Part shown: one piece after another, positions 12,307 to 31,563 of the stretch
Layout of the letters: each line of letters starts with the position of its first letter
Numbering within the stretch: position 1 is the stretch's first letter
Assembly (NCBI GenBank): GCA_000725195.1
Contig: JAIL01000258.1
Coordinates: 22,822-86,821 of the forward strand
Direction: 5' to 3'
Origin: Snodgrassella alvi SCGC AB-598-O02
GTDB taxonomy: Bacteria; Pseudomonadota; Gammaproteobacteria; Burkholderiales; Neisseriaceae
Length of the DNA stretch: 64,000 nt
Notes under the pieces: generated by a model
What the model saw: only the letters and a program-made list of their open reading frames with translations
Databases searched by the model: none
Told to the model about the DNA's origin: nothing
Position numbers and translations under genes: made by a program

Positions 12307-14442
12307 TTATGTTTCATCTCTCTTGATTACTATTGGCAATTGATAATGAGTTTTGCTCATTAGATGGCAGAGATATGCCGTTTGTAAAACATGGTCAATC
12401 TTTATTGGTTGATTTTGTGTTAGTTTATTTAGCGTATGGCTTAGCGTGGTTAAGCCAAGTGAATTACAGTGAAATTGTAACGCCTCGATTTTTTGTTTAT
12501 CGCTACTAGATAATACTAGCCGACCAGAACTGGTTATTGCTTCAAGTAATGTTAAAGTTGGTTTTATAATATATGTTGTAATAGGATCTTGTTGGTAAGC
12601 AATTTGCGTATTGAGCTTTTTCTTGTTTGATAATTTTAGTTTTTCAAATAGATGATTGAATTTTTCCCAAAATTTAAGGGTATTATTTTCAATAAATAAA
12701 CTTTCGTTATCAAAATCCAAATATAGTAAATTAATCTGCTTGGTTTGCGACTCTTGATAAAAAAGCGCAAAAGGCTCTAGATCTAAATTATTGTCATTTT
12801 TTATGCATTTTACCAAGACAGTTAAAGGTTTATGTTCTGTTTTTAAAAAACAATTTAATATTCTAATACGCTGCTCATCTATACCATCCCAAAATAGTCT
12901 CAATTGTAGTTGATTGTTTTTATTATCTTTAATACACCAAACTAGGCATTGTCTAATTTCATCTAATGCTGGTGTTTGTGAATTGGTGATATGAATAGCC
13001 AATATATTGTCAAACAGAGAATCATTTACATCATTTTTTTGCAGATAATCGGACAACTCTGACCAATCATGAAAACCATTATTGGTACGAAACACTTGAT
13101 AATCCTGATCACTCCAACCGGTCTTCTTTAGCGTTACATTAGAACCCAAAGCAGATAAATTATTACCATCAGCTAGACGTGGATTATGCAAGGTAAACCC
13201 TCTTTTCATCAGCATATTTGGCATTGATTGCCATAGAGAGACAGTTTGCCAGATCGCTTCGCGATAGAAATTGATATCGGCATCGTTGGGTCTAGCTATT
13301 GTTGTTTGGTAATACTGATTATCCTCAGGTTGCCAAAAGTAGAATGTGGCACCTTGAGCACCGGTTTTGCTTTGCCACCAATAACCACCTAGTGGCAATA
13401 AATCTAACGCTTGATTTTTGGTTTGATATTGGCGTTTTTGATTACCGCGCATATCTGTAAGCTGTTGACCGTGGCTATTTAATAGTATTTGCAAATGTGC
13501 GGTTAAACGGGCTAAAAGTAATAAAATATCTTGTTCTTCAGTAGAAAAATGTCGATTAACTTGTAATTCAATTAATTGGCAAATTTGCCTAAGCATAGCG
13601 GCTAACATAGGTAACCCTTGTGCTCTGGCGGACATATTAAGTAGCAGTAGCTGGTTAGATTGACTTTTGCTAACATGAGACAAACCATGTTCTATCAATG
13701 AGTTAATCTGTGACTGCACCTGTTTAATCAAGAGAATTTCATCATCACTAAGCTGATCTTGCTGATTATTTTGCTGATGTTCGGTAATAATTTGATCTGG
13801 CCATTGCCAGTTTTTTTGATTCTGTTGAAATAGATAAGCAATAACCGCTAAATGTACTGCCTGTTTTTGCTTATCTGGTAATTCAGAAATGATACCAGCA
13901 AAGCCGGTACCCGCTGTATAGATAATTGGTGTAGTACTGAGTGGAACTTGAATACGAAGTTGAACGCCCTGGGTTTGCACGCTGACCGCATCGTTTTGTG
14001 ACCAATCAAATAAAAGTTGATAGGCTAATCTTATATTGGCCTTACCCACTGTTTTAAATAATTGGCTACTATCAATTGTTAATAGTTCGGCTAAAGGATC
14101 ACTATAGTGGTTAGAGGATTCAATTGGCTGATTAGATGTGTCACTATTAGCTTTAGCAGCAACTTGATCAATAACGGGATTTTCTTGTAACCATAACACT
14201 GCAGCGATTATGTGTTTACAATGTTCACTGGCTGGACAGCTACAGTTAGCCGTTTGGATGCCTTGTGGTGTCAGTTTGACTTGTTGGCTATCAACCTCGA
14301 ATAACAGATGTGATTGCTGGTGTTCGATTAATTTGACTTTATTGGCTTGAATATCTTTAAGTGCACGTCGAATGACGCCAACATTAGCATAGACAGCTAA
14401 AGCATCTTGATCGTAATTTAAGTAGATTTGCGACCAACTCAT
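12307..14442 (-). CDS. yehQ: SWIM zinc-finger protein, YehQ-like
   Basis: A 711-residue protein with a SWIM motif CxCx5CxH at residues 67-77 (CSCPASEHCKH), followed by IIAAVLWL, as is typical of SWIM proteins. The rest is mainly helical, with no other motif I recognise. SWIM domains bind zinc and are thought to contact DNA or protein. The start is the ATG that overlaps the yehP stop in ATGA, preceded by GAGGTG; a longer frame begins 21 bases upstream. It is the last gene of the Yeh-type operon, in the same position as yehQ in E. coli. Assignment rests on domain and gene order. Confidence 0.8.
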   Translation of the reverse strand: MSWSQIYLNYDQDALAVYANVGVIRRALKDIQANKVKLIEHQQSHLLFEVDSQQVKLTPQGIQTANCSCPASEHCKHIIAAVLWLQENPVIDQVAAKANSDTSNQPIESSNHYSDPLAELLTIDSSQLFKTVGKANIRLAYQLLFDWSQNDAVSVQTQGVQLRIQVPLSTTPIIYTAGTGFAGIISELPDKQKQAVHLAVIAYLFQQNQKNWQWPDQIITEHQQNNQQDQLSDDEILLIKQVQSQINSLIEHGLSHVSKSQSNQLLLLNMSARAQGLPMLAAMLRQICQLIELQVNRHFSTEEQDILLLLARLTAHLQILLNSHGQQLTDMRGNQKRQYQTKNQALDLLPLGGYWWQSKTGAQGATFYFWQPEDNQYYQTTIARPNDADINFYREAIWQTVSLWQSMPNMLMKRGFTLHNPRLADGNNLSALGSNVTLKKTGWSDQDYQVFRTNNGFHDWSELSDYLQKNDVNDSLFDNILAIHITNSQTPALDEIRQCLVWCIKDNKNNQLQLRLFWDGIDEQRIRILNCFLKTEHKPLTVLVKCIKNDNNLDLEPFALFYQESQTKQINLLYLDFDNESLFIENNTLKFWEKFNHLFEKLKLSNKKKLNTQIAYQQDPITTYIIKPTLTLLEAITSSGRLVLSSSDKQKIEALQFHCNSLGLTTLSHTLNKLTQNQPIKIDHVLQTAYLCHLMSKTHYQLPIVIKRDET

Positions 14443-15614
14443 TTCATCACCTCTGCAAGCCAAGTAGCAAAATGTTCGGGTGTTAAAGCCGCAATTTGCA
14501 TCCCTCGATTAGCCAGTTGTTGGGATACTTGCAGATCATAAACCGGAGTTGCATCGTAGTCTAAAGCGGCTAAGCCAAGCATTTTAATGCGATTAGCGTT
14601 GAGGCGCGCAACGGTGTTATAAAGATTGGTTAAGCTCACCCCTTCATAAAAATCACTGACAACAACCATAATTGTACGCGATGGATTAGTTATTTTTTGT
14701 TCCGCATAATTTAATGCATAGCCAATGTTGGTACCTCCACCGAGTTGTACTGTCATGAGTATTTCAACTGGATCGCTCGCTAAATGGGTTAAATCCACCA
14801 CTTGAGTATCAAAAACCAATAAATGTAAGTTAACAGCCGGTAACTGAGTAATAATACTGGCACAAATAGCCGAGTAGAAAATGGAGGTATCCATTGAACC
14901 ACTTTGATCAACACATAAAATGATATCCCAAGGAAGTTGGCGAGTAGCGCGAGAGTTAAAGATGGCTTTTTCAATAATGATTCGTTGTTTATCCTGATCA
15001 AAATGTTTTAAATTAGCTTTAATGGTTGCTCGCCAATCAAAGTTTTGGTTGCTTTTAATTAATGAACGTCGAAATCGATTTTTTTTGCCAGTCAACGCAT
15101 TAATAAAATTGGTCTTAATTTTTTGCAGAATTTCATCCACTACTTTTTTGATAAGCGCTTTTACCTCTTCTTGCACACTGTTATTGAGCTTACCACGTAA
15201 GTTCATTAATAGTCTCACTGAATTGAAATTGGGTTGTAACTCTTTTACGGCATTAGGATCGTTTAAAATACCTTCGAGCTGATATCGTTCAATTGCTTGG
15301 TTTTGCATTCGTTCAAAAGTACTTTTAGGAAATAATTTGCGTGTCTGTCTTAACCAATTTACAGTGTTGTAAACCGAGTTATCTTTTCCTCCATATTTTG
15401 ATTTTGAAGCGTTTTCGTCCTTAGTTAATAAACCTCGAGAGCGATATTCATTTTGATAGAGATAATTTAAGGCTTGATCAATTTGCCGATCATAGGGATT
15501 TAAATCATTATTGGGATTGAGATGTTCATCTGCGTATTGACCTAAAATTAAACGCCAACGCTTAATTTGTTCGTCTGGTTTGCTATCTTCTTTGGTTTGT
15601 TTATCGTTATTCAT
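14439..15614 (-). CDS. yehP: VWA-domain protein, YehP-like
   Basis: A 391-residue protein whose C-terminal half (about 228-390) is a von Willebrand A domain. The MIDAS metal site is intact: DQSGS at 236-240, a threonine in QLGGGTNIGYAL and an aspartate in VVVSDFYEG. The N-terminal half is helical and basic (LIKKVVDEILQKIK). VWA proteins of this kind partner with MoxR AAA+ ATPases, one of which is encoded two genes upstream. It overlaps yehQ by four bases and follows the DUF5682 gene by seven. No signal peptide is seen, so it is cytoplasmic. Confidence 0.88.
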   Translation of the reverse strand: MNNDKQTKEDSKPDEQIKRWRLILGQYADEHLNPNNDLNPYDRQIDQALNYLYQNEYRSRGLLTKDENASKSKYGGKDNSVYNTVNWLRQTRKLFPKSTFERMQNQAIERYQLEGILNDPNAVKELQPNFNSVRLLMNLRGKLNNSVQEEVKALIKKVVDEILQKIKTNFINALTGKKNRFRRSLIKSNQNFDWRATIKANLKHFDQDKQRIIIEKAIFNSRATRQLPWDIILCVDQSGSMDTSIFYSAICASIITQLPAVNLHLLVFDTQVVDLTHLASDPVEILMTVQLGGGTNIGYALNYAEQKITNPSRTIMVVVSDFYEGVSLTNLYNTVARLNANRIKMLGLAALDYDATPVYDLQVSQQLANRGMQIAALTPEHFATWLAEVMK

Positions 15615-15621
15615 ACCAATC

Positions 15622-18189
15622 CTAGTGTTTGAACCAATCGGTGAGTTGTTGCTGTTTTATGTGTTTGCTAATTGACAATTCCAGCGAGAGTGCTTTTTGT
15701 AGCTGATTTTCACTAAATTGATATTGTTGAAGATGCAAATCAGCATCAGTAATATGATATTTTTTAGCAATTTTTTCTGCCAAGGAGGCATTTTGATTTG
15801 GATTTAATTGGCTAAAAGCTAAACGCAAATCAGGTAAGATTTTGATAAACTGCTCTGCTGACCAATCTATCAGTAATTTATCTAAACTGTCTAATAGGAT
15901 GGATGAATGGATAACCAATTCTGGCGCACATGACATAATGCCAATAAAATAGTTAATAGTTTGTTCACTTTGCGTAGCTAAACTAAAATTGATATTGATA
16001 TTTTCTTCCAATTGTTGTTGACTAAAATAGGAATCCAAATAGCTAATACTATCAATTGCCCCTCGGATTAATGAGACCTCATTTAACTCAGATTGTAAAC
16101 GATGCAGATTCTGGTAAAAATCTTGTTTAAGTTGTTTAATATCAAGTTGATCTGGCAAATAGTTTAATAAGTCTCTAAACGAAAGTAATATTTGCAAATT
16201 TTGCTGTTGATGCTCAATTTCTGGTTGTTTTAATTTATTTAATAGAAAAAAGCCTTGTTGCACAATTTTATTTAATAAAGTAAGTAATGTCGATGTCGCT
16301 TTAAGTTGTAAAAAAGTTTGCCCTTGCCACAAGTAAACCATACGATGGCCACAATGAATGAGCGAATCCAATTCACCTTCACTTAGAATAAAATCAGCTA
16401 GATTATCAAGTATATGGTTAAAATAATCATCTAGCCCCATTAACGCCGCTTGCGTTAACTGCTCAACCGCCAGTAAACTTGCTGACACCATGTTATTTTC
16501 TATAAATTGTTTGGCGTCCATTTGCATTTTACTTATGGCAATGTGTTCCAGCTTAGTTCCCTTTTGTGATAACTCAATCAATCTCGCTTCCACCATTGGT
16601 GTCCAAGCATAACGCCAATCTTCAAACATCACATTTAAACGTTGACCATGAATGTAATCAGGACCATCAACTCGACTAGCAAAACCGACCTTTAAAAAAG
16701 TCATCAAGTGTAAAAAACGACTACGTTGTCGATGATCAGGTTTACGATAAATATCGATATGAGTGAGTTTTTGATTAGTATCATCCAATTTGAAACGATA
16801 TTTTTTTAAAGTTAAATAGACATCATTAACCAGTGGTGGTTGTGCTATTCCGATTGGTACTTCGCCCAGTAAATTGCCTGATAGACAATCTCGTATTGTT
16901 AACCAAAACTCACTACGCGCATTATCAATGCTCTCTTTAATAAAGCAAGATTGAATGGCATCGAGTAAATCATATCGTCCTGGTCCATTATGCCCACGCA
17001 AATCAGCAAGTAATATGGCTTGTTCTATGGCTGATTTTAACGGCACAAATCCTGTTAAATTATTATAGTTTGATTGTTGGCGTAATTTATGGGCAATTTC
17101 TGACAGTAAAGTTAAAGTTTGTCGTTGGCGATTTTCTCGTCCGGTTTGCTCTTCATTAGCAGTCTTATCATAATCCAACATCGATTGCCACGTTGTTTGA
17201 TAATACGCAGGTGAAGGCATGCCGGATGCATAACCATTTAAGGCATCAAGGCGATCAAAACTGTAACGAATTAACCATGTCTGATCTTTATCACCACTTT
17301 TTTGTTGACGATTAAATTGTGTCATGTCAGCTTTTTTCGGTAATATCAGCCGATTTTTCCATAATCCTTCAACTAACGCTAAGGTGTGAAAGCCTCCTGT
17401 TACCACAACAATTTTGGCTTTAGGATTAGATTTTTTTAGCTCACCAATTGCAGATAACATATACTGTTCACGTTGTGCCGATCCCTCAGCGACTAGCGAC
17501 TCTTGGCTATAATCGAGCCTTGACATGGCGCACCAAATAAATGTATCAACAAAAAACGTTTGCCAATCAGCAATTTCCTCATAATCTTTTAATTCAAATA
17601 GATGCTCCCAGACTTCGTCATGATCTCGGCAGTGCAGTTTTTGCATTAAACATTGAATATATTGACTATGTTTGAGATAAGTTTCAGAAAGTAGCGAACG
17701 ATCTTGCTCTAAATCGCTATTTAGATCCGTCTGTAAACTCCATGGTAAATCAATAAATTGTATCTTGGCCTGCTGCTTTTTTGCCATCTGCATTGCTATC
17801 CACTCTGGTGAGTAATGACAAAATGGATAAAATGCTGAATAGATAATTGATTTAGGTGTTATATCATAGGCATCATCGGTATCATCTTCCGTTTCTGGCT
17901 CGGAATTTGTTATTAGTAGATCAATGGTTTTTTCGGTTTGACATAGTACGGCGATAGGTGGCTTAGTGTCACTATGTAACAGTTGATCGATGATAGTAGC
18001 AAAACTTGATGGCGCTTCGATCAATATGTGTGTTGGCTGGACTTCTTCAATTAAGTGTTTTAGTGCATAGCTACAGGCAGGGCTATGATGACGCACTGGC
18101 GCAAAGTAGATCTGCTGTAACTGTAGCGCTTTGAGACTTTGTAACGCTTTTGATAACCTTTCCGGTAATAATGAATGGCTGATTGTCAT
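15622..18189 (-). CDS. yehM: DUF5682-family protein, YehM-like
   Basis: A large cytoplasmic protein of 855 residues. The N-terminal third has FAPVRHHSPACSYALKHLI near residue 31 and ILIEAPSSF, then KIVVVTGGFHTLALVEG near residue 260. The GGFH motif and the ordering resemble the TraB/ChaN-like fold; that comparison is an inference. The rest is helical and less distinctive. In E. coli the homologous gene is yehM, between yehL and yehP, the same order as here. It lies nine bases after yehL and seven before yehP. The biochemical role is unknown. Confidence 0.82.
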   Translation of the reverse strand: MTISHSLLPERLSKALQSLKALQLQQIYFAPVRHHSPACSYALKHLIEEVQPTHILIEAPSSFATIIDQLLHSDTKPPIAVLCQTEKTIDLLITNSEPETEDDTDDAYDITPKSIIYSAFYPFCHYSPEWIAMQMAKKQQAKIQFIDLPWSLQTDLNSDLEQDRSLLSETYLKHSQYIQCLMQKLHCRDHDEVWEHLFELKDYEEIADWQTFFVDTFIWCAMSRLDYSQESLVAEGSAQREQYMLSAIGELKKSNPKAKIVVVTGGFHTLALVEGLWKNRLILPKKADMTQFNRQQKSGDKDQTWLIRYSFDRLDALNGYASGMPSPAYYQTTWQSMLDYDKTANEEQTGRENRQRQTLTLLSEIAHKLRQQSNYNNLTGFVPLKSAIEQAILLADLRGHNGPGRYDLLDAIQSCFIKESIDNARSEFWLTIRDCLSGNLLGEVPIGIAQPPLVNDVYLTLKKYRFKLDDTNQKLTHIDIYRKPDHRQRSRFLHLMTFLKVGFASRVDGPDYIHGQRLNVMFEDWRYAWTPMVEARLIELSQKGTKLEHIAISKMQMDAKQFIENNMVSASLLAVEQLTQAALMGLDDYFNHILDNLADFILSEGELDSLIHCGHRMVYLWQGQTFLQLKATSTLLTLLNKIVQQGFFLLNKLKQPEIEHQQQNLQILLSFRDLLNYLPDQLDIKQLKQDFYQNLHRLQSELNEVSLIRGAIDSISYLDSYFSQQQLEENININFSLATQSEQTINYFIGIMSCAPELVIHSSILLDSLDKLLIDWSAEQFIKILPDLRLAFSQLNPNQNASLAEKIAKKYHITDADLHLQQYQFSENQLQKALSLELSISKHIKQQQLTDWFKH

Positions 18190-18198
18190 AGCGATTAG

Positions 18199-19296
18199 TT
18201 ATTTCCAAAAAGTTTTTGATACTTGATAAAAACTACGCCAGATATCTGACTTTTTAGCCCGCTCTCGTACCACATTATCCATATAAAATTGGATTCTTTT
18301 AATATCATCCGCATTGTCTTTCAAAACAACGCCAATCAACTGTTTGGCAATCTGTTCACCTGTTAATGTCCCATTACCAAGATAATGGGCATCTAATGCT
18401 GATGCATAGGCAATATTTACCGCTTCGGCAGTGGACATTACTGCATCGGGTGTTTTTAATTTGGCACCTCCCGACGTTTGCCCCTGTCTAAGCTCTTGAA
18501 ATGTCGTCACCAGTAGTTCGATAACGTCAATAGGTACAGTGATTTGTGCTTTTAAATCACCTAATTCTTGACTAAGTTGCCGTTGGATTAATTCAATTTC
18601 AAAATCTTTATCGGTTATAGGATTAACCGTTTCGAAATTAAAACGTCTCTTTAACGCGGCTGACATTTCGTGCACACCACGATCTTGTAAGTTTGCTGTA
18701 CCAATAATATTAAATCCAGGCTTAGCTTTGATAACACCGTTAGACCCCATTTCAGGGATCATCATTTGTTTTTCAGACATAATTGAAACCAGCATATCTT
18801 GAATTTCTGGTTGGCAACGGGTTATCTCTTCAAAACGAACAATTTTACCTTGAAGCATACCTTGATAAACTGGCGAGCCAATTAAAGCCCGTTCAGTGGG
18901 TCCTTCAGCAAGTAATAGTGCATAATTCCACGAATAACGAATATGATCTTCATTAGTACCAGCAGTACCTTGAATGGTTAAATTTGAATCACCACTTATC
19001 GCTGCTGCTAATAATTCTGATAACATGGATTTTGCTGTACCGGGTTGCCCCACTAGCATTAAACCTTGTTTTCCTAATAGTGATACAATTGCACGGTCAA
19101 CTAATGGGTCATCACCAAAAAATTTTCGGCTAATTCCCAAAGATTCATTACCTAAAATAAATTGACGTACTGATTTAGGAGATAAAAGCCAACCTTGTGG
19201 TTTATTATTGTCTTTATCGACTTTGCTTAATGTTGCCAATTCTTGCTCATAACGCTCTTCCGCTGTTAAGCGAATTGCTTGTTTCTGATTTACCAT
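18199..19296 (-). CDS. yehL: MoxR-type AAA+ ATPase, YehL-like
   Basis: A 365-residue AAA+ ATPase from the ATG at 19296, whose bases overlap the stop of the upstream yehI copy; AAGGA lies nine bases away. Walker A is GQPGTAKS at 83-90. The Walker B region reads IVRFEEI, with glutamate where aspartate is usual. The sensor-1-like segment is FNIIGTANLQDRGVHEMSAALKRRF. MoxR ATPases act with VWA partners as chaperones that activate or remodel target complexes, and a VWA gene is two genes downstream. The helical C-terminus ends SFYQVSKTFWK. A decayed second copy lies at 27550-27629. Confidence 0.9.
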   Translation of the reverse strand: MVNQKQAIRLTAEERYEQELATLSKVDKDNNKPQGWLLSPKSVRQFILGNESLGISRKFFGDDPLVDRAIVSLLGKQGLMLVGQPGTAKSMLSELLAAAISGDSNLTIQGTAGTNEDHIRYSWNYALLLAEGPTERALIGSPVYQGMLQGKIVRFEEITRCQPEIQDMLVSIMSEKQMMIPEMGSNGVIKAKPGFNIIGTANLQDRGVHEMSAALKRRFNFETVNPITDKDFEIELIQRQLSQELGDLKAQITVPIDVIELLVTTFQELRQGQTSGGAKLKTPDAVMSTAEAVNIAYASALDAHYLGNGTLTGEQIAKQLIGVVLKDNADDIKRIQFYMDNVVRERAKKSDIWRSFYQVSKTFWK

Positions 19297-22200
19297 TCTA
19301 ATTTTTCCTTCCAATTTGGCTCAAATCCGCTTGACGCATTAGCGACAGCTATATAATCAGCATAACCTTCTGCAAGTAACACTTGCGGTAATTTATCGAG
19401 AGCAATGGCTTTATCGGTATAACGTGAATTTTCAGTGAAATAAACTGTATAGAGCACTGCTGGAATATTTTCTTCAGGTACAAAACTACCACTAAACTCA
19501 ATATTGATATAAATTCCAATACTTGCAAAGTATTTATGATAACCTTCAAACCACCCCGCATCTTCTATAACATCTCGTTTATAACCTAATTTAGTTAATA
19601 TACCGCGTATAGTAAAACTATCAGTCATCCAGCCTAAGTGGTCATCAATTACCCCATTTTTCATTTTACTAATATCCGGTAATTTATGGGTAAATTGTTC
19701 AACCAACTGATTTATTTTGTAATCTTTAATATGCGATTGCCATTGCGCAATATCAGTATTTGACATTAATGCACAATGAGCGAGTGTAATAAAGTGATTG
19801 GGTCCTAAAACGATTTCATCATCTTGATTGTTAATTAAACTCCCATCTTCCGTTGGTCTAAAACTATTTACAATTTGACCATCATTATCTAATTCCAACC
19901 AAACTAAACGTTGAATAAGTCGCCCTACAATAGGGTGAGATTGCAAATATTTTTGCCAATCTTCTATGCTCCATTGACGCTGAGTACACATTGCTTCATA
20001 AAAACGACTAACTTGCATATCAAGTAATTGGCTGAGCTCTTTTTTACTGTTTTTAAATTGATTTTTTGCTTCCTTAACTAGATCTGCATCTTCGGTTTTA
20101 CGAGCTTCAGGTAAAGCTTTTATTTTAACGCCATCAGCATTTTTTAATTGCCATTTAAATTTATCATCCAAACTAGCAATAAAAGTACGCTCACCATAAT
20201 CAAGGATTAATTGCCCATCATCATCTAAACCGGCCATTGATATCGTACGGTCGGCTAATTGATCGGTAGTCCAACTATTACGCTGGGCTATATTTTCAAC
20301 TAATAATCGTGCCTTTTCTTGAATTGATGTAGTTCGATAACGACGTGCTAAGGATAGTAGAAGTTGAATAATCAATGGATCATCACTGTTTCCCAACGCT
20401 TCAAGTAAAGCTTCAATTTGTGCTCGACGTCGATAATGATCTTTCATATAACTGGCTAATAGTGTAACAGCTACACGTCCATCAACATTACTGGATAAAG
20501 CTAATATCCCTTTTACTTTAATCGCTGAGCAATAGTAGGTTGATAGCGTTTCATTTTTGATTTCTTCAAAAACTTGTTCATAGGTAATATTTGCATAATT
20601 AGCATAATACTGCGGATATTGCTTGTAATACCCTTTATATTCCTGAAAACGTTGAGGAGCTAATAAATTTGCCTTAACCTCAGCCTCTTCTATGGTAGCT
20701 GTTCGGGTATCTTGTTTGATAAAACTTTGCAAAATAAATTCGCCCAATTTTTGTTGGCTTGATTGACTAAGCAAACGAGAATAAATGGTTAACAGGGAAT
20801 TAGAGGGATCTTTTAATTTAACCGCTAACCATACCCACCATTCAATAATTTGAGAATTAACTTCATCACCATTTTGCCAAGTCAGAGATGGCATTAAGTC
20901 AAAATTAAACCATTTAAGTTCTGCTGGCTTTTTACCTTTTAAACCTTTTTGGGCATCGGCCAATAACTTCTTCGACGTTAAATATTGACTGATGTCTTCA
21001 CCTATTTTTTGTAGGGCAATTAAGATTGCGGCTTGTACAGCTTCACGTTTTTCTTTTTTCAGGGCTACATGTAAAGCTTCAATAGAAGATTTTTGTCCTA
21101 AGTCAGCCAACCAGTTAGCTGCAGCAATACGGACATTCTGTTTTGCGGACGATAAAGATGGTTCAATTTGATTATGTATATTAGGGATCAGTTTTAAGGC
21201 ATCTTGGGCAACATAGCAAATCGATTTGCTTCCCTCTAAAGCTAATTCACATAAATAGGTAACATATTTGGCTGGAATAATAGGGAAAAATTGTAATGTT
21301 TTAATGGCGCTAGTTACATCAACACTATACCAGTCGGCGTTATTTCTTTTATCGCGATTATGGGAATTATACCAGTCATTAGATAGAGGGGTAAAACCAA
21401 ATGCTTCATCAAGCAAAAATTCATTTTCGGCAAAAAATGCCCAAAGTTTATGAGGTTCATCTATATAAAGATCGTGATAGGTGTCATTATGTAAAAATAG
21501 CTCAGCAACAGTATATTTGACATTCTCATTGCTTTCAATCTTGACTATGACATCAACAATTTGTCTAAGGTCAAGTTTTTTCATAAAGTCGTATTTTTTG
21601 TATATTCTTTCAAGAAAGTAACTAGCGTCCAAGCTATAAGAGTTACTTTTACCGTCCAAGTTATATTGGAATCGATATTTTAATCGATATATTCGAAAAA
21701 GGTGAAACAAAGTAAATTCGGGTAAACTTTGTAACCTATTTTTAGTAAGTAAAAATTTGAAATTTGTATCCCTATCAAAATGTGTACGAAGTGTCGAATA
21801 TTCGATTTTGCCATTCAGATAAGCAACTATATCATCCAAAAAATGCAATTTAATTTTCTTTAATGATTTATAATTTTTTTGATAATAATCCTGATTAGTT
21901 CTGTTTTTTTTGTTTTCCTCTAACTCATTTTGCATTAATTTTTCATACTTAATAATATATTCTTCAATATTTTGCAGTAAAATATCGCGCGCATTTATTG
22001 GTAACTCAGTATCAGTAAAGGGTTGAAAATCAGGAATAACTAAATTTGTTTGCTGTTTGACGCTGTTAGCGCTTTCGAGTCGTGATAGAGCGCTTTCGAT
22101 TGCGGTAATCACCTTTTTATTGGTTTCGTTAGCTAACGCCTGTTGTAAAATTGTCGGTTCGACAGACATTCTCGACAGTGATACTACTGCACGACAACGT

Positions 22201-23597: not shown

Positions 23598-23738
23598 TTA
23601 ACTATACCTAAGATCTTCAACAACCTTGTGATCTTTGATTGATAAAACATACTGACAGATCCGTTCAAGTATTGATTGTTCTAAATCATATAAACCCGCA
23701 ATGCAATCAACAATAACTTTCTCTCTCGACTTCTGATC
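23598..23738 (-). pseudogene. Relic of a yehI N-terminus downstream of copy 2
   Basis: In the minus-strand frame shifted by one from the end of yehI copy 2, 46 codons stay open (DQKSREKVIV, then DCIAGLYDLEQSILERICQY) to a stop at 23598. They resemble the start of intact YehI, for example ELDKSLPERITQYIL in copy 2, with about 10 of 28 residues identical without gaps. There is no ATG, GTG or TTG at the beginning of the frame. It matches the relic at 27687-27809. I read it as the surviving 5' part of another yehI copy. Confidence 0.6.
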
Positions 23739-26700
23739 ATGTATCCCATATCACTTTATTTTGCCAATTAGGGTCAAAACCATTGGATGCATCGGCTACC
23801 GCCATATAATTAGCATAACTTTCGGCTAATAACACTTTCGGCAGGTTATCTAGCTTAATTACGCCATCATGATAACCCGGTGTTTTACTGAAATAAAGTC
23901 TATCAAGTACTGCTAGAATATTTTCTTCAGGTACCATACCACCACTGAAATCAATATGGATATAAATTTTTAAACGGCTATAGTATTTGTGGTAACAAAA
24001 AAAGCTTTCACCCTCCTGCGCACTTTCACGCTCATAACCCAATTCGGTTAAAATATCACGTAGGGTAAAACTGTCCATTGACCAACCATAACGATCATTA
24101 ATGATATTATTTTCAAATTTGTTCATATCCGGTAATGGATGACTAAACTGGTCAAACCAGGAGATTACTTTATAATCTTTAAGATGCGCTTGCCATTGTG
24201 CTATATCTTCACTTGTAAGCAATACTGAATGAGCAACGGTAATAAAATGATGTTGATCAATTGAGATTTCTTCATCTTGATTAGTTATTAAGTTGCCATC
24301 TTCTGTTGGCCTAAAACTATTGACTATTTGACCATTACTGTCTAATTCCAACCAAACTAAACGTTGAATAAATCGTCCCATAATTGGGTGAGATTGCAGA
24401 TATTGTTGCCAATCTTCCACTCGCCATTGATGCTGAACACACATGGCTTCATAAAAACGACTAATTTGCATAGTGAGTAATTGATTAAGCTCTTTTTTAT
24501 TATTGCTGAACTGTTTTTTTACCTCTTTGACTAATTCAGGGTTTTCGTTTTTGCCTGCTTCAGGTAATGCTTTGATTTTTTCTCCCTCAGCATTTGTTAA
24601 TTGCCATTTAAATTGCTCATCTAAACTAGCAGTAAAAGTACGTTCACCATAATCAAGAATTAACAGGCCATTATCATCTAACCCTGCCGTCGATATGGTG
24701 CGATCAGCCAGTTCATCAATAGTCCAGCCTGAACGCTTGGCAATATTTTCTACCAAATATCTGGCCTTTTTTTGAATGGATGCTGTGCGATAGTTGGATA
24801 CTACTAATAATAATAGTTGAATGATCAGCGGATCATCACTGTTTGCTAATGCTTCAAGCATCGCTTCAATTTGTGCTTGACGTTGATAATGGTTTTTCAT
24901 GAACGTGCGTAAGAGAGATACCGCAATTCGACCTTCAATACCACATATTAACGCTAATATTCCTTTTGTTTTGATGGCTGAACCAGAACAGGTTGCTAAT
25001 GTCTCTTGTTTAATTTCGTCGAAAACCTGCTCATAAGTAATATCTTTATAGTGACGATAAAATTCTGGATAGTTCTGATAATTTAAGATACGTTCTTGCA
25101 AGCGTTTATCGGCTTGTAAGCTAGCTACGGCTAGAGCCTCTTCTAACGTTGGATTTAGCGTATCTTGCTTAATAAAACGTTGTAAAATAAATTCGCCTAA
25201 TTGTTGCTGACTTTGGATGCTTAACAATCGACTATAAATAGCTAACAGCGCATTAGCTGGATCATTTAATTTAGCTGCTAATCGAATCCACCACTGAATA
25301 ATTTGTGGATCAACTGCTTTACCATTACGCCAAGTCAATGAGGGAATTAAGTTAAAATCAAACCAATCTAGTTCGGTTGGCACTTTACCTTCTAAACCTT
25401 TTTGGGCATCAGCCAATAACTTTTTCGGCGTTAAGTGCTGACTAATGTCTTCACCAATTTTTTTCAGCGCCACCAATATCGCCGCTTGTAATGTTTCGTG
25501 TTTCTCTTTTTTTAGTGCATCATTTAGTGCCTTATGCGAACTTTTTTGTCCTAGCTTAGCCAACCAATTAGCTGCAATAATTCGCACCTCTTGTTTAGAG
25601 GAGGATAAGGCTTGTTCAACTTGATGATGTATGTTAGGGATCCGTTGTAAAGCATCTTGCGCTACATAACGTAACTGCTTACTTTCGCCTAAAGCTAACT
25701 CAAATAGGTAAGCGACATATTTAACCGGAAGCGTTGGAAATAGCTTTAATATTTTAATGGTAATAATTTTATCAATAAAACGAACAAAAAACGGAGCGAT
25801 TTGAAAAGGGGCAAAACCTAATGCTTGATCAATCAAAAAGTCATTTTCAGCAAAAAAAGGCCATAATTTATTTGGTTCATTTTCATAAATATCATAAAAA
25901 AAATCACTGTTTAAAAATGGCAGAGCAATTGTATATACAAATTTTTTATTGGGATCGAGCTTTACCATAACATCCGCTATTTGTCTAAGATCGGCATTTT
26001 TAACCACCTCATAGTTATTGTATAACTTTTTAAAAAAATAAATACTATCTGTAGGGCCAGTTAATTTTTTCATTCTGAATAAGTGAAATAAAGAAAATTC
26101 AGGTAAATTTGCTAGTCGATTTTTGGTAAATAAAATTCGAAAATCAATACGCTTACCAAGTTTTTTTAATAATGCTGTGCCATCGATTTTACCATTTATA
26201 TGATCAAAGATAGTATCGAGAGAATTTAATGTGACCGTTTCCAGATGTTTATAACTTTCTTGATGATATTGCCATGATGTATTATTTTTTTGGTTTTTCT
26301 CTAGCTCATCTTCCATCAATTTTTTATATTCGATAAGGCTTTTGTCGAAATTCTGCTGTAAAATATCAAGCGCCGTTATTGGCAATGGTGTGTCACTAAT
26401 TGGTTCAAATTCAGGAATAACTAAATCTGCTTGCTGTTTAGCTGCATTGGCACTTGCCAAACACAATAAAGCACTTTCAAGAGCAGCAATAACTGTTTTA
26501 TTGGTTTCGTTAGCTAAAGCTTGCTGTAAAATTGTCGATTCAGAAATAATTCGAGAAAGTAATATTGCGGCATTAGCACGCTCATTTACCGAGCCAGAAG
26601 TTAAAAAGTGTTGTAATTGGAGTTGAATCAGCTCATGTGGTAAGTTAAATAGTATTCCTGTGGCTAATTGACTCACCTGTTTGCAAGTATTTAACGCCTG

Positions 26701-27471
26701 CATGGCAATAAAATCAACCAGTTGTAACTGAAATTCTGGATATCGTTGAATATATCTAAGTTGTTCTACCTGCCCCCCAGGCGCCAGTCCCAGTGAAGGG
26801 AGTTGTTTAAATAATTCAATTCGTTCTTGAATATAGGTCAATAATCCATTCAACCGAGTAAAATTTCGGAAGAAATCAAAACGATCAGCAGCAACATTTT
26901 GACGGTCAAAAATCACAAATAGCAACTTTTCGCCTAATCCTGCTTGTTCAATTTCAAGAAATTGATGTAATTGTTGTGCTGACCGATTTTCACGCTCAAC
27001 AATTTCTTTTTTGTGCCAATTAGGACAAGATAATGTAGTAATGAGTCCATCATATAACAAACAGATAAACCATGATGGGAGTTGTTCGCTTGTATGTTTA
27101 ATAAAACTTGAATGGTCAAATAAAGTAGCAAAAACTCGGGCAAATCGAATTATCTGTTCTGGTGTATAAGCATCCGTCCAAAGCTTATAAAAATTAACAC
27201 GAGCTTGTAATGGCGGATGAATTTTGACATAAGAATCTACATTATGTAATTCTGCTGGTCTCTGTAATAATTCATAAATGTTGGTAAAGTTATTCGGCAC
27301 TTGGCATAACTTATCAAAATCAGCTAACACAGCAAGTTCTTCACCATGCAAGATATATTGCGTGATCCTCTCTGGTAAAGATTTATCCAGTTCACTTAAT
27401 GGGTTAAAGATAGTGGTAATTAACTGGTCAGATATCAGTAGACTTGTTGAGAATTGTTCTGTTTTTTTCAT
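23737..27471 (-). CDS. yehI: DUF4132 (YehI/MolR-like) protein, copy 2
   Basis: A 1244-residue paralogue of the proteins encoded at 19290-23105 and 27829-31563. It has the same architecture: a helical N-terminus (DQLITTIFNPLSELDKSLPE), HEAT-like repeats (EVRIIAANWLAKLGQ) and a C-terminal DUF4132 region (TASLDEQFKWQL, MGRFIQRLVWLELD). I start it at the ATG at 27471 (MKKTEQF), which aligns with copy 3; a frame 18 bases longer lacks a ribosome binding site. The end differs from the other copies: it reads KVIWDT, so it lost the TGG-TAA end that overlaps yehL in copy 1. No yehL follows it. Confidence 0.86.
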   Translation of the reverse strand: MKKTEQFSTSLLISDQLITTIFNPLSELDKSLPERITQYILHGEELAVLADFDKLCQVPNNFTNIYELLQRPAELHNVDSYVKIHPPLQARVNFYKLWTDAYTPEQIIRFARVFATLFDHSSFIKHTSEQLPSWFICLLYDGLITTLSCPNWHKKEIVERENRSAQQLHQFLEIEQAGLGEKLLFVIFDRQNVAADRFDFFRNFTRLNGLLTYIQERIELFKQLPSLGLAPGGQVEQLRYIQRYPEFQLQLVDFIAMQALNTCKQVSQLATGILFNLPHELIQLQLQHFLTSGSVNERANAAILLSRIISESTILQQALANETNKTVIAALESALLCLASANAAKQQADLVIPEFEPISDTPLPITALDILQQNFDKSLIEYKKLMEDELEKNQKNNTSWQYHQESYKHLETVTLNSLDTIFDHINGKIDGTALLKKLGKRIDFRILFTKNRLANLPEFSLFHLFRMKKLTGPTDSIYFFKKLYNNYEVVKNADLRQIADVMVKLDPNKKFVYTIALPFLNSDFFYDIYENEPNKLWPFFAENDFLIDQALGFAPFQIAPFFVRFIDKIITIKILKLFPTLPVKYVAYLFELALGESKQLRYVAQDALQRIPNIHHQVEQALSSSKQEVRIIAANWLAKLGQKSSHKALNDALKKEKHETLQAAILVALKKIGEDISQHLTPKKLLADAQKGLEGKVPTELDWFDFNLIPSLTWRNGKAVDPQIIQWWIRLAAKLNDPANALLAIYSRLLSIQSQQQLGEFILQRFIKQDTLNPTLEEALAVASLQADKRLQERILNYQNYPEFYRHYKDITYEQVFDEIKQETLATCSGSAIKTKGILALICGIEGRIAVSLLRTFMKNHYQRQAQIEAMLEALANSDDPLIIQLLLLVVSNYRTASIQKKARYLVENIAKRSGWTIDELADRTISTAGLDDNGLLILDYGERTFTASLDEQFKWQLTNAEGEKIKALPEAGKNENPELVKEVKKQFSNNKKELNQLLTMQISRFYEAMCVQHQWRVEDWQQYLQSHPIMGRFIQRLVWLELDSNGQIVNSFRPTEDGNLITNQDEEISIDQHHFITVAHSVLLTSEDIAQWQAHLKDYKVISWFDQFSHPLPDMNKFENNIINDRYGWSMDSFTLRDILTELGYERESAQEGESFFCYHKYYSRLKIYIHIDFSGGMVPEENILAVLDRLYFSKTPGYHDGVIKLDNLPKVLLAESYANYMAVADASNGFDPNWQNKVIWDT

Positions 27472-27549
27472 AGTCCTTAGTTTTTCCATTAAGGTTGAAA
27501 TCTTTGGTATTTATTTATAATCAATTGTTATAGTGATTTAACATTGCTA

Positions 27550-27629: not shown

Positions 27630-27686
27630 CTTTAATCCTTTCTATCCAAATCAAATTTACTTGTTATTATATTTATTCTTTGTTTA

Positions 27687-27809
27687 TCATGGATTTAGAT
27701 CATCAGGAACCATGACATCTTTGCCATATACAATATAATGACAAATTTGTTCAAGCATTGACTGTTCTAATTTATGTAAACCGGCAACGCAATCAAGAAT
27801 AACCTGATC
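27687..27809 (-). pseudogene. Relic of a yehI N-terminus downstream of copy 3
   Basis: Forty codons on the minus strand (DQVILDCVAGLHKLEQSMLE, then QICHYIVYGK) end at a TGA at 27687. They align without gaps to the start of intact YehI copy 2 (DQLITTIFNPLSELDKSL), with about 12 of 34 residues identical, and more closely to the relic at 23598-23738. The frame begins after a TAG, and only a TTG is available as a start. Differences between the two relics fall often at third codon positions, which suggests they were once translated. Confidence 0.6.
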
Positions 27810-27828
27810 CAAAAGGTTAAACTATTTT

Positions 27829-30800
27829 TTACCATATTAGTTTATCTTTCCAATTAGGATCAAAACCACTACTAGCATTTGCCACTGCCATATAATCAGC
27901 ATAGCCTTCTGCGAGTAACACTTGGGGTAATTTATCTAGCGCAATTGCTCTATCTTTGAAACCTTTTTTATTGCTGAAATAAAGGTTAAAGAGTACTGCT
28001 GGGATATTTTCTTCCGGTAGCATGCTACCACTGAATTCAATATTGATATGAATATTTAGACTGTCAAAATATTTATGATAACCAAAAAAACATCCTTCAT
28101 CTTCAATAATGTCACGCATATAACCCAATTTGGTTAAAATACCACGTAGGGTAAAACTGTCCGTTAACCAGCCTAAACGATCATCAATAATGCCATCTTT
28201 AAATTTGCTCATATCCGGTAATGGATGACTAAACTGCTCAAACAATGGGTTTATTTTGTAATCTTTAAGATGCTTCTGCCATAGTACTACATCTTCAATT
28301 GACAGTAACACTGAATGAGCAACGGTAATAGAATGATTTTGATCTAGTAAGATCTCTTCATCTTGATTGGTTATTAAACTGCCATCTTCAGCTGGCCTAA
28401 AACTATTAACTATTTGACCATTATTGTTTAATTCCAGCCACACTAAACGCTGAATCAATCGTCCCACAATTGGATGTGGTTGCAGATATTTTTGCCAATC
28501 GTTCACTTTCCATTGACGCTGAACACACATGGCTTCGTAAAAGCGGTTAATTTGCATAGTAAGCAATTGGCTCAGCTCTTTTTTACTGTTGCTAAATTGT
28601 TTTTTGGCTTGTTTGACAAGTTCTGAATTTTCGCTTTTACGTGCCTCGGGTAATACTTTAATCTTTTCTCCCTCTGCATTTTTCAATTGCCATTTAAACT
28701 GCTCGTCTAAACTAGCAGTAAAGGTACGCTCACCGTAATCAAGAATTAACAAGCCATTATCATCTAAGCCTGCGGTCGATATGGTGCGGTCTGCCAGTTC
28801 ATCTGTGCTCCAGCCTGTACGCTGGGCAATACTTTCTGCCAAGTATTTAGCCTTTTCTTGAATGGATGCCATCCGATAGCGACGAGCTAATGACAATAAT
28901 AGTTGAATGATCAGCGGATCATCACTGTTTGCCAGTGGTTCAAGCATTGCTTCAATTTGTGCTCGACGTTGATAATGATTTTTCATATAACTGCGCAAGA
29001 TAGATACTGCAAAAGAGCCCTCAATACCGCAGGTTAACGCTAATATTCCTTTTGTTTTAATGGCTGAGCCAAGATAAGTTGCTAATGTTTCTTTTTTAAT
29101 TTCGTCAAAAACCTGCTCATAAGTAATATTTTTATAGTAAGAATAAAACTCCGGATAGCGCTGATAATTTAAAATATATTGTTGCAAGCGTTTATCGGCT
29201 TGCGAATTGGCTTCGGCTTCAGCCTCCTCTAAAGTTGGTGTTCGGGTATCTTGGTTGATAAAACTTTGCAAAATGAATTCGCCTAATTGTTGCTGACTTT
29301 GGGTGCTTAACAATCGAGTATAAATGATTAATAGTGGATGACTAGGATCTTTTAATTTGACCGCTAAGCAGATCCACCACTGAATAATTTGTCGATCAAC
29401 TTTATCACCATTTTGCCAAGTTAAAGTGGGTAATAAGTTAAAATCAAACCAATTAAGATCGGTGGGTATTTTACCTTTTAAACCTTTTTGAGCATCAGCC
29501 AATAACTTTTTCGGGGTTAAGTGCTGACTAATGTCTTCACCAATTTTTTCTAGTGCCACCAATATCGCTGCTTGTACTGTTTCGCGTTTTTCTTTTTTTA
29601 AAGCATTATTTAAAGCCTTAATTGAGCTTTTTTGTCCTAACTCAGCCAACCAATTAGCTACGGCAATACGCACTTCTTGTTTAGGAGAGGATAAAGCTTG
29701 TTCAACTTGATTATGTATATTGGGGATCAGCTTTAAGGCATCTTGCGCCGCATAACGTATCTGCTTACTTTCGCCTAAAGCTAATTCAAATAAGTAAGCA
29801 ACATATTTAGCTGGAATAGTTGGAAAGAGTTGTAATATTTTTATGGCACAAACTTTATCGATACAATTATAAGAAGATTGATTGATTTGAAGAGGAGCAA
29901 AACCCAATGCTTGATCAATTAAAAATTCATTTTCAGCAAAAAAAGCCCATAATTTATATGGCTCATTTTCATAAATGTCATGAAAAGCATCACTGGTTAA
30001 AAATGGCAGAGCAATTGCATATTCAACTTGTGAATAGGAATTGAGTTTGACCATGACATCAGCTAATTGTCTCAGATCGAATTTTTTAACCACGTCATAG
30101 TTATTGTATAATCTTTTAAAATAATAATTACTATCTGAAGGGTCAATTAATTCTCTCATTCGAAATAAGTGAAATAAAGAAAATTCAGGTAAATTTGATA
30201 ATCGATTTTTAGTCAGTAAAAATCGAAAATCAATATCTTTATTAATTTTATCCAATAATGCGGATCGATTGATTTTACCATCCAAATATTCAAAGATATT
30301 ATCCAGGGATTTTGATGTGACCGTTTTCAACGATTTATAACTGTTTTGATAATAATCCAATGCCCATGATTTATTCTTTTCTTTATTTTCCTCTAGTTCC
30401 TTTTGCATCAATTTTTTACATTCGATAAGGAAATCGTCAAAATTTTGCTGTAAAACATCACGAGCACTTATTGGCAATGGCGTGTCACTAAGAGGTTTAA
30501 AATCAGGGATAACTAAATCAGCTTGTTGTTTGGCTGCATTGGCACTTTCCAATCTTGATAAAGCATTTTCAATGGTAGCAATAACTGTTTTATTGGTTTC
30601 GTTAGCCAAAGCCTCTTGTAAAATTATCGGTTCAGAAATGATTCGAGAGAGCAATATTGTTGCATTAACACGTTGCTTGACTGAGCCTAAAGTTAGAAAA
30701 TATTTTAATTGATGTTGAACCAGCCCCAGTGGTTGACTTAATAGTATTTCTGTAGCAAGTTTACTCACCTGCTTTGAAGTGTTTAATGCCTGCATTGCCA

Positions 30801-31563
30801 GAAAATCAACCAATTGCAAACTTAGTTCAGGGTATTTATGAATGTAGTTAAGTTGTTCTAGCTGTCCCAAAAGCGCCAAACCGCGTAAGGGAAGTTGCTT
30901 AAAAAATTCAAGGTGATCTTGGATATAATTCAATAACCCATTCAACCGAGTAAAATATTGAAAGTAATTACAATGATATTCAGGAATATTATGACGGTCA
31001 AAAATTGCGAATAGCAAATTCTCGCCTAATCCTGCTTGTTCAACTTCAAGAAATTGATGTAATTGTTGTACCGACCAATTTTCACGGTCATCAATTTTGT
31101 CTTCGTTTTCACCAAAAAATGGTAAGGTAGTAATCAGCCCATCATATAACAAATAGATAAGCCATGATGGGATTTGCTCGCTTACGCGTTTAGTAAAACG
31201 TAAATGTTCACACAAGGTGGCTAAAACACGGGCAAATCGAATAATTTGTTCTGGTGTATAAGCCTCAGTCCACAGTTTATAAAATTTAATCCGAGCATGT
31301 AACGACGGATGAATTTTGTCGTAGTTATCTAAACTATAAAAATCTGCTGGTCTTTGCAATAATTCATAAATTTTGTCAAAATTATTCGGTATTTGGCATA
31401 ATTTATCAAAATCAACTAACACAGCAACTTCATCACCCTCTAAGATATATTTTGTTATCCGTGTTGGTAAAGAATTATCCAGCTCACTTAATGGTTTGAA
31501 AATAGTGGTAATTAATTGTTGTGATAAGAATGGCTTAGTTAATAACTGTTTTGTTTTTTTCAT
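27829..31563 (-). CDS. yehI: DUF4132 (YehI/MolR-like) protein, copy 3
   Basis: A 1244-residue paralogue and the first gene of the block in transcription order. N-terminal helical region (QQLITTIFKPLSELDNSLPT), HEAT-like repeats (KQEVRIAVANWLAELGQ, then TVQAAILVALEKIGEDIS) and a DUF4132 C-terminus (VGRLIQRLVWLELN), ending SSGFDPNWKDKLIW. The ending TGG-TAA is the same as in copy 1, where it overlaps the yehL start, so this copy was once probably coupled to a yehL too. Copies 2 and 3 look more alike in the middle region than either does to copy 1. Confidence 0.87.
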   Translation of the reverse strand: MKKTKQLLTKPFLSQQLITTIFKPLSELDNSLPTRITKYILEGDEVAVLVDFDKLCQIPNNFDKIYELLQRPADFYSLDNYDKIHPSLHARIKFYKLWTEAYTPEQIIRFARVLATLCEHLRFTKRVSEQIPSWLIYLLYDGLITTLPFFGENEDKIDDRENWSVQQLHQFLEVEQAGLGENLLFAIFDRHNIPEYHCNYFQYFTRLNGLLNYIQDHLEFFKQLPLRGLALLGQLEQLNYIHKYPELSLQLVDFLAMQALNTSKQVSKLATEILLSQPLGLVQHQLKYFLTLGSVKQRVNATILLSRIISEPIILQEALANETNKTVIATIENALSRLESANAAKQQADLVIPDFKPLSDTPLPISARDVLQQNFDDFLIECKKLMQKELEENKEKNKSWALDYYQNSYKSLKTVTSKSLDNIFEYLDGKINRSALLDKINKDIDFRFLLTKNRLSNLPEFSLFHLFRMRELIDPSDSNYYFKRLYNNYDVVKKFDLRQLADVMVKLNSYSQVEYAIALPFLTSDAFHDIYENEPYKLWAFFAENEFLIDQALGFAPLQINQSSYNCIDKVCAIKILQLFPTIPAKYVAYLFELALGESKQIRYAAQDALKLIPNIHNQVEQALSSPKQEVRIAVANWLAELGQKSSIKALNNALKKEKRETVQAAILVALEKIGEDISQHLTPKKLLADAQKGLKGKIPTDLNWFDFNLLPTLTWQNGDKVDRQIIQWWICLAVKLKDPSHPLLIIYTRLLSTQSQQQLGEFILQSFINQDTRTPTLEEAEAEANSQADKRLQQYILNYQRYPEFYSYYKNITYEQVFDEIKKETLATYLGSAIKTKGILALTCGIEGSFAVSILRSYMKNHYQRRAQIEAMLEPLANSDDPLIIQLLLSLARRYRMASIQEKAKYLAESIAQRTGWSTDELADRTISTAGLDDNGLLILDYGERTFTASLDEQFKWQLKNAEGEKIKVLPEARKSENSELVKQAKKQFSNSKKELSQLLTMQINRFYEAMCVQRQWKVNDWQKYLQPHPIVGRLIQRLVWLELNNNGQIVNSFRPAEDGSLITNQDEEILLDQNHSITVAHSVLLSIEDVVLWQKHLKDYKINPLFEQFSHPLPDMSKFKDGIIDDRLGWLTDSFTLRGILTKLGYMRDIIEDEGCFFGYHKYFDSLNIHINIEFSGSMLPEENIPAVLFNLYFSNKKGFKDRAIALDKLPQVLLAEGYADYMAVANASSGFDPNWKDKLIW

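Follow-up and report, generated by a model that had tools for sequence, protein, structure and literature searches.

A YehI-L-M-P-Q-type MoxR/VWA cluster of Gilliamella origin in a Snodgrassella-like genome, with DUF4132 giants as possible interchangeable recognition subunits

Within the draft genome of Snodgrassella alvi SCGC AB-598-O02 (GenBank assembly GCA_000725195.1), positions 22,822 to 86,821 of the forward strand of contig JAIL01000258.1 form the stretch of 64,000 nucleotides that was analysed here and is referred to as the window. Between 12307 and 31563 the window holds seven intact open reading frames (ORFs), all on the minus strand, that encode, from the low to the high coordinate, a SWIM zinc-finger protein, a VWA protein of the CoxE type, a DUF5682 protein, a MoxR ATPase and three giant DUF4132 proteins; transcription runs from the three DUF4132 genes through MoxR, DUF5682 and VWA to SWIM. 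An earlier note, made from the letters of the sequence, had described this block of three full-length giants and four smaller partners, the VWA protein with an intact metal ion-dependent adhesion site (MIDAS), and all of its ORFs, as well as the MIDAS motif DQSGS, are indeed in place. The features of the locus, in window positions, are as follows.

9279..11360, plus strand: OPT-family transporter gene of the left flank, native to the host genus (Pfam OPT; DNA homology to the same-genus L117, L118, L120 and L122)
11741..11814, minus strand: tRNA-Glu (ttc), located with ARAGORN; the block lies on its 5' side
11924..12195, plus strand: truncated 3' end of a FUSC/YccS-like gene, left import end (68% DNA match to Gilliamella L039; 54% amino acid identity over 76 residues; the L039 gene is FUSC-like by Pfam)
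12307..14463, minus strand: SWIM zinc-finger protein, YehQ-like, 718 residues from TTG; likely ATG at 14442
14212..14244, minus strand: SWIM motif CSCPASEHCKH (pattern C.C.{2,30}C.H in 64/66 homologues)
14439..15614, minus strand: VWA (CoxE-like) protein, YehP-like, 391 residues (Pfam VWA_CoxE, E=8.6e-49)
14895..14909, minus strand: MIDAS motif DQSGS (pattern [DE].S.S in 68/68 homologues)
15622..18189, minus strand: DUF5682 protein, YehM-like, 855 residues (Pfam E=9.4e-91; a structural model is discussed below)
18199..19314, minus strand: MoxR AAA+ ATPase, YehL-like, 371 residues from TTG; likely ATG at 19296 (Pfam AAA_5; 48% identity to E. coli YehL)
19027..19050, minus strand: Walker A motif GQPGTAKS, of the form GXXXTAKS (80/80 homologues)
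19290..23105, minus strand: DUF4132 copy 1, MoxR-proximal, 1271 residues (Pfam)
23737..27489, minus strand: DUF4132 copy 2, 1250 residues (Pfam)
27829..31563, minus strand: DUF4132 copy 3, 1244 residues (Pfam; also modelled)
31564..31712, minus strand: upstream region of copy 3, Gilliamella-like, right import end (the DNA match to L128 stops at 31712; host-type homology from 32011)
32308..33678, minus strand: QseC-like histidine kinase of the right flank, native to the host genus (70-72% identity to Snodgrassella-named proteins)

Each of the three giants is matched by the Pfam families DUF4132 and HEAT_2 and the MoxR protein by AAA_5, and the scores of DUF5682 and VWA_CoxE are well over the cut-off in their respective proteins. 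The SWIM protein has no Pfam match at E<=0.001 and nonetheless carries the arrangement CxCx5CxH at residues 74-84; an NCBIfam scan returned no naming model over its cut-off. Among themselves the three DUF4132 copies are 59, 65 and 72% identical. Of the giant lengths given previously, 1271 for copy 1 and 1244 for copy 3 hold, but the middle protein has 1250 residues from its first ATG, the figure of 1244 corresponding to an inner ATG. The overlaps that had been taken as signs of coupling exist if MoxR and SWIM start at inner ATGs rather than at the TTG codons of the listed ORFs: the end of copy 1 then overlaps MoxR by 7 nucleotides, and the VWA stop and the SWIM start share the letters ATGA. 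DUF4132 copies 2 and 3, however, stand apart, with intergenic gaps of 631 bp (copies 1 and 2) and 339 bp (copies 2 and 3), so that among the DUF4132 genes overlap with the core is limited to the MoxR-proximal copy.

Nucleotide identities mark the block as a recent acquisition of a Snodgrassella-like genome from Gilliamella, an origin that the earlier account had missed. Over 15,337 bp the block shares 98.5% identity with contig CAMLPV010000017 (L130), part of a metagenome-assembled genome (MAG), and over 8 kb it shares 97.9% with Gilliamella apicola ESL0177 (L125). Copies 1 and 2 are those of the CAMLPV MAG, but copy 3 is of another type, with 82% DNA identity to the third copy of that MAG and with its nearest DNA match, 92.7% over 3.4 kb, in the Gilliamella MAG L128. 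The surrounding DNA tells of a different lineage. On the same contig the RdgC protein encoded at 38723 is 98% identical to that of G001, a member of the host genus, and only 28-32% identical to the best match in each of eight Orbaceae genomes (seven Gilliamella, one Frischella), which argues that the likeness of the block is not due to relatedness of the organisms. The matches of the right-flank histidine kinase to Snodgrassella-named proteins, with more distant ones to named Neisseriaceae, likewise indicate a Snodgrassella-like host.

The block sits between the tRNA-Glu and the histidine-kinase gene, and DNA homology to the same genus extends on the left up to 11443 and begins again on the right at 32011. 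In L118 the homology on the OPT side and that on the histidine-kinase side lie 841 bp apart with the tRNA-Glu between them; ARAGORN places a tRNA-Glu in this interval in L118, L120 and L122 and reported none in L117. DUF4132 was found in 0/13 other genomes of the host genus, as was DUF5682 (0/13). The truncated FUSC-like remnant at the left import end corresponds to the gene that adjoins the cluster in a Gilliamella. Gene transfer between Gilliamella and Snodgrassella is already on record, the genes in common including some for Rhs proteins (PMC9239279); the main text of that report mentions MoxR twice and DUF4132 not at all.

The interval between the OPT and histidine-kinase genes, the site of the tRNA-Glu, measures about 0.8 to 3.7 kb by homology in L117, L118, L120 and L122, and holds small ORFs in L120 and L122. 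Since its size differs between relatives, the interval may be an insertion hot spot. An integrase-borne island was considered and set aside: no att-like direct repeat stood out between the ends (short matches only, E 0.003 or weaker), and no integrase occurred among the Pfam matches of the ten flanking ORFs in which one was looked for (nine with matches). The idea that the window and the CAMLPV MAG differ by a replacement of the third copy at a single place was also dropped: in G150 the window-type copy stands nearer the low end of the contig and is followed by the other type, an order for which loss from a longer array accounts equally well.

How the cluster is composed elsewhere was followed in 80 loci from several phyla, which are the best-scoring of 578 confirmed relatives and not a random sample; the loci reach 10 kb upstream, so that their DUF4132 copy numbers are lower bounds. 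All five families occur within the fetched stretch in 63 of the 80, several with a rotated order. Counting DUF4132 genes per locus, a check that the earlier note had proposed, gave at least two in 15 of the 80 loci (8 of the 15 in Orbaceae), whereas a second MoxR, DUF5682, VWA or SWIM gene was found in 0 of the 80. In this tally the three genes counted for L041 are two, one of them split, and the second gene of L072, L079 and L082 lies on the other strand. DUF4132 thus multiplies and the four other genes stay single.

Within the genus Gilliamella DUF4132 is present in 14 of 35 genomes, with 1 to 8 Pfam matches each, and gene-by-gene inspection of G166 revealed nine tandem DUF4132 genes (8 full-length and one of 648 residues) alongside a single core set. 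Per cluster the numbers are 1-9 in Gilliamella, 2-3 in E. coli and 2-3 in some other proteobacteria. The Gilliamella arrays, as in G. apicola ESL0177, N-G2 and G166, represent the source lineage, with the same genes in the same order, 97.9-98.5% nucleotide identity for the nearest two and 1-9 copies, but the window holds a particular set of copies 1 and 2 of the CAMLPV type and a different copy 3. In a quick tree, some forks of which are unsupported, the Orbaceae, Janthinobacterium and sphingomonad copies fall into three distinct groups, and those of E. coli group with one G114 copy; these separate groups suggest that DUF4132 duplication recurred in several lineages. A separate tree of DUF4132 copies took in those of 550 residues or more. 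Duplication by assembly or sequencing error, which the earlier note had named as a way for its idea to fail, is ruled out as the origin of the three copies, which are only 59-72% identical and have relatives in genomes with 1 to 9 and differing copies.

Several other arrangements were seen. In the sphingomonad-type loci L072 (16608-20450), L079 (16613-20386) and L082 (16590-20381) there is a second DUF4132 gene past SWIM, in the reverse orientation, and those of L072 and L079 form a group of their own in the tree. In six Acinetobacter loci (L059, L065, L066, L069, L071 and L102) DUF4132 follows SWIM rather than preceding MoxR, and L098 has divergent DUF4132-MoxR and DUF5682-VWA-SWIM units; these arrangements suggest that the cluster behaves as movable sub-blocks. 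At G179:C1:1906658-1907107, in the genus Gilliamella, a DUF4132 sequence stands without core genes in the 20-kb stretch around it and is possibly an orphan copy.

Against their nearest relatives, window copies 1, 2 and 3 gave ratios of nonsynonymous to synonymous substitution rates (dN/dS) of 0.17, 0.32 and 0.24. These values indicate purifying selection and rule out pseudogene decay, the other course of events under which the adaptor idea of the earlier note was to be abandoned. That note had also proposed aligning the copies and mapping dN/dS by region, and here purifying selection was confirmed but regional positive selection was not: the sole defined value above 1 is 1.09, for residues 600-750 of one pair with dN and dS both about 0.01, and three further cells have a dS of 0 with a dN of 0.006-0.014.

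The copies are also mosaic. In a comparison of 39 Orbaceae and window copies of at least about 1,070 residues, 19 of 741 pairs (which are not independent) hold a 100-codon stretch that differs by 3% or less together with one that differs by 20% or more. The clearest detail is provided by the MoxR-proximal copy of G. apicola ESL0177 (G149_D1), a chimera whose two parts meet abruptly at residue 330: residues 1-330 have 94-95% DNA identity to G166_D6 (81% in one 50-codon window) and 68% to window copy 1, whereas from residue 330 to the end the identity is 98.7-99.2% to window copy 1 and 66-75% to G166_D6. Copy 9 of G166 resembles copies 3 and 8 of the same array at 94-100% over its last four 50-codon windows and at 75-92% over the first five. 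Among 32 diverse DUF4132 proteins, 23 of the 25 invariant columns fall at model residue 861 or later.

The same five families in the same order make up the yehI-L-M-P-Q cluster of E. coli, and tandem DUF4132 genes occur in both. Identity to the K-12 proteins is 48% over 345 residues for MoxR and YehL, 40% for VWA and YehP, 26% for DUF5682 and YehM, 31% over 78 residues for SWIM and YehQ, and 26-29%, in partial alignments, for DUF4132 and YehI. There are differences: the E. coli DUF4132 types within one strain are 31-45% identical and form a separate tree group, as compared with 59-72% for the window copies, and the E. coli cluster is near-core and located at metG, but that of the window is an import at tRNA-Glu. 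The statement of the earlier note that E. coli has a single yehI does not hold, as K-12 carries an interrupted second DUF4132 gene, the pseudogene yehH, just upstream of yehI (with a separate PF05406-family gene, yehF, before yehH), and other strains have two or three. Among four further strains, two (TUM1857 and M12) have three tandem DUF4132 genes by annotation, one has three with one shortened, and one has two (L015 6475-13912; L141-L144). The yeh genes are annotated in E. coli as putative or uncharacterised.

In all ten strain pairs compared, yehI had the highest dN/dS (0.17-0.27) of the five core genes and metG; the values were 0.01-0.06 for yehL, 0.09-0.16 for yehM, 0.06-0.09 for yehP and 0.09-0.19 (three pairs) for yehQ, and 0.19-0.24 for the first upstream DUF4132 gene in three like-type pairs. 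In a survey of 5,426 E. coli genomes that covered yehI, yehH, yehL, yehM and metG, the two DUF4132 genes were the divergent ones: records with no more than 90-95% identity to K-12 made up 2054 of 5285 in the case of yehI and 2216 of 5302 in that of yehH, whereas yehL had 96 of 5173, yehM 52 of 5286 and metG 203 of 5587. The resistance transposon TnMB1860 has been reported in the DUF4132 region of an E. coli ST131 subbranch (PMC9334617), which indicates that the metG/DUF4132/yeh locus can be interrupted in that subbranch.

Structural models give some indication of what the two largest families might be. The model of DUF4132 copy 3, covering residues 45-1244 (mean predicted local distance difference test score, pLDDT, 88.4), is a long HEAT-like solenoid followed by an alpha/beta C-terminal module, the fold comparison having covered mainly the solenoid part. 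In the DUF5682 model (pLDDT 86.7) the N-terminal third is possibly EreC/TIKI-like and the remainder consists mostly of helical repeats; by this weak match, residues 1-330 may adopt a hydrolase fold of the EreC/TIKI-TraB-ChaN kind. A sequence search of solved structures with DUF5682 gave nothing useful. Three short motifs of the N-terminal part each contain an invariant residue.

18073..18093, minus strand: RHHSPAC motif of DUF5682 (H34 invariant in 43/43 aligned rows)
18010..18024, minus strand: LIEAP motif of DUF5682 (E58 invariant in 43/43 aligned rows)
17386..17397, minus strand: GGFH motif of DUF5682 (H268 invariant in 43/43 aligned rows)

H34, E58 and H268 may be the counterparts of the catalytic residues of the superfamily. 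A second class of MoxR-DUF5682-VWA loci was also encountered (L026 11294-16748, L028 5297-19270, L032 and L033), with no SWIM gene detected in the fetched stretch and with DUF5682 frames mostly of about 750-790 residues that score 770-870 bits in Pfam, as compared with 305 for the window protein; such loci occur in the family and order of the window's host.

Among characterised relatives, RavA-ViaA and other MoxR/VWA pairs likewise consist of a MoxR AAA+ protein with the gene of a VWA cofactor nearby (PMC3893208). YehL is one of seven MoxR subfamilies in that account and is listed apart from RavA (PMC3893208), and the partners DUF5682, SWIM and DUF4132 distinguish the present cluster. The MoxR-vWA ternary conflict systems (PMC7159879) also join a MoxR and vWA pair to dedicated extra components, and the P-loop form GXXXTAKS, described as frequent in their FtsH and beta-propeller classes (PMC7159879), is found here as GQPGTAKS in the window and in 80/80 homologues (the best 80 of 578). 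The Pfam model bpMoxR matches the MoxR protein itself below its cut-off (24.5 versus 27 bits); other than this, Pfam (E<=0.001) reported no VMAP, iSTAND, FtsH or beta-propeller family in the seven proteins. In contrast to those systems, the VWA protein of 391 residues has VWA-type Pfam families alone at the same threshold and no effector domain, and the variable part is a separate DUF4132 protein. The main text of the conflict-system survey contains no mention of YehL, SWIM or DUF4132 (PMC7159879). In the accessible text of open-licence papers no functional study of a yehI-L-M-P-Q-type system and no account of this system under DUF4132 was found, and the open-licence papers searched made no mention of DUF5682.

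What, then, would such a cluster do? That DUF4132 alone has been repeatedly duplicated, and that its front end has been exchanged in one Gilliamella copy, makes interchangeable recognition parts likely, and the suggestion of the earlier note that the giants are alternative recognition subunits gains from both observations (15 of 80 loci against 0 of 80, and the exchange of an N-terminal solenoid segment). The reading tentatively preferred here, at a little under even confidence, is that of an imported YehI-L-M-P-Q-type cluster whose DUF4132 giants are the interchangeable recognition subunits of a single ATPase machine that they share. In DUF4132 the variable part, the HEAT-like solenoid at the N-terminus, would bind a target, and the conserved C-terminal module would dock on the VWA protein, which would present the DUF4132-target pair to the MoxR ring. 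ATP hydrolysis would then remodel the target and hand it to DUF5682, whose N-terminal domain, possibly EreC/TIKI-like, could cleave or inactivate it, and the SWIM protein might act as a nucleic-acid or protein anchor. Gain or reshuffling of DUF4132 genes would widen the range of targets and leave the machine untouched. What the sequence itself shows is the gene order, the import, repeated duplication confined to DUF4132, purifying selection on the three window copies, one clear N-terminal exchange between paralogues and a concentration of invariant residues towards the C-terminus; the contacts of DUF4132 with VWA or MoxR and the activity of DUF5682 are putative. Candidate targets are a phage, a competitor, a mobile element or a damaged complex of the cell's own; a foreign one is weakly favoured, in view of the mobility of the cluster, its patchy presence and its swings in copy number.

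A number of observations weigh against recognition subunits of this kind. Most of the 80 loci have a single DUF4132 gene, and yehL, present in 5171 of 5426 E. coli genomes, is near-core, unlike a typical accessory defence system. The comparison with conflict or effector systems drawn in the earlier note found little backing in PADLOC 2023, which gave two weak matches only (E 0.0026 and 0.0057) for the seven proteins. Among 100 neighbour proteins from 24 loci it matched 21 models at 1e-10, many of them for Cas1 and each with a single protein, which makes about six proteins in all should the Cas1 models have hit the same one. The neighbours are mostly ordinary metabolic genes; placement in defence islands is left unsupported by this small scan, which took in 100 of 111 listed ORFs from 24 loci (25 of the 80 were tried and one yielded no ORF) and had no matched background. 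Nor do the giants always evolve fastest. Against G151, the nearest Gilliamella, dN is 0.004 and 0.007 for copies 1 and 2, 0.013 for SWIM and 0.016 for DUF5682; the dN/dS of SWIM against L037 is 0.32. In E. coli the second upstream DUF4132 gene (0.15) falls just below yehM (0.16) in the single pair for which it was compared, and there is one pair in which yehQ has a higher dN, though not dN/dS, than yehI. By region dN/dS is below 1 nearly everywhere, which speaks for divergence and shuffling without demonstrated positive selection. Gene conversion of the usual kind among tandem repeats may account for the C-terminal homogenisation seen in several pairs, and residues 1051-1200 are not better conserved than the middle in an entropy profile of 29 copies (set aside were six proximal-type copies, all copies of G175, L040 and L041, copy 2 of L043 and those of 1,100 residues or fewer).

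Some of the same facts would suit a housekeeping maturation chaperone: YehL and YehP would mature a single host complex, with DUF4132 as a scaffold or client, and additional copies would be a matter of dosage or of paralogues devoted to related host complexes, not of recognising foreign targets. The characterised MoxR/VWA pairs are chaperone-like maturation factors (PMC3893208), and the near-core status in E. coli, the single DUF4132 gene in most of the best 80 loci, the ordinary metabolic neighbours and the purifying selection on the window copies all agree with such a role. One would not expect a host-specific factor, however, to pass from one bacterial class to another as a block of 20 kb, to be missing in 13 of 13 relatives, to range from 0 to 9 copies in a single genus or to exchange an N-terminal segment; the chaperone is rated as unlikely, if far from negligible. 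More improbable is a response to DNA damage or stress, in which a DUF4132/WGR branch would sense broken nucleic acid and the MoxR machine would clear stalled nucleoprotein. In K-12 the gene directly before yehH is yehF, of family PF05406, the WGR domain; some E. coli copies are annotated as WGR plus DUF4132, and the SWIM motif is present. In Deinococcus, depletion of the DdrO repressor leads to strong induction of the operon drA0165-drA0166, which includes a DUF4132 protein; the same paper assigns MolR to the LexA regulon and notes that it has a WGR domain in common with DR2173 (PMC8533742). The window copies, though, have no WGR domain by Pfam, and control of the block by a LexA box finds no support: the sole match to CTGTN8ACAG in or near the block, which has one mismatch, lies within DUF4132 copy 1 at 22773, and across the window as a whole 13 matches were counted where chance would give 16.4.

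A chimeric assembly of Gilliamella and Snodgrassella contigs would explain the import away. The host bin, 60.8% complete, is broken up into 259 contigs, and both genera inhabit one gut (PMC9239279), so that co-assembly is plausible. Two false joins at one native site would be needed, however, as both sides of the block rejoin the OPT and histidine-kinase genes that lie so close together in L118; moreover, the block is identical to no Gilliamella sequence found, the nearest being at 98.5% over 15.3 kb and at 92.7% for copy 3, and it ends in the truncated remnant of a FUSC gene. A chimera accordingly seems very improbable.

Returning to interchangeable recognition subunits, a bolder form of this reading is possible, though on balance doubtful: the DUF4132 arrays may constitute a bacterial receptor repertoire, in which one MoxR/VWA machine with a hydrolase module is equipped with as many as nine HEAT-solenoid receptors. 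Their N-terminal recognition halves would be duplicated, exchanged and lost, their C-terminal docking half would be kept alike, and gut symbionts of different classes would trade the complete cassette. Should this hold, an array of HEAT-solenoid receptors with a MoxR ATPase to serve it would amount to a recognition layout new to bacteria, a claim of novelty that rests on searches of open-licence papers. Since one part of the cluster multiplies and recombines and four stay single, the DUF4132 paralogues are the part to test first, for different partners. The recent transfer of a whole cluster into a genus that lacks it in its other sampled genomes amounts to a natural experiment, and both genera have cultured isolates.

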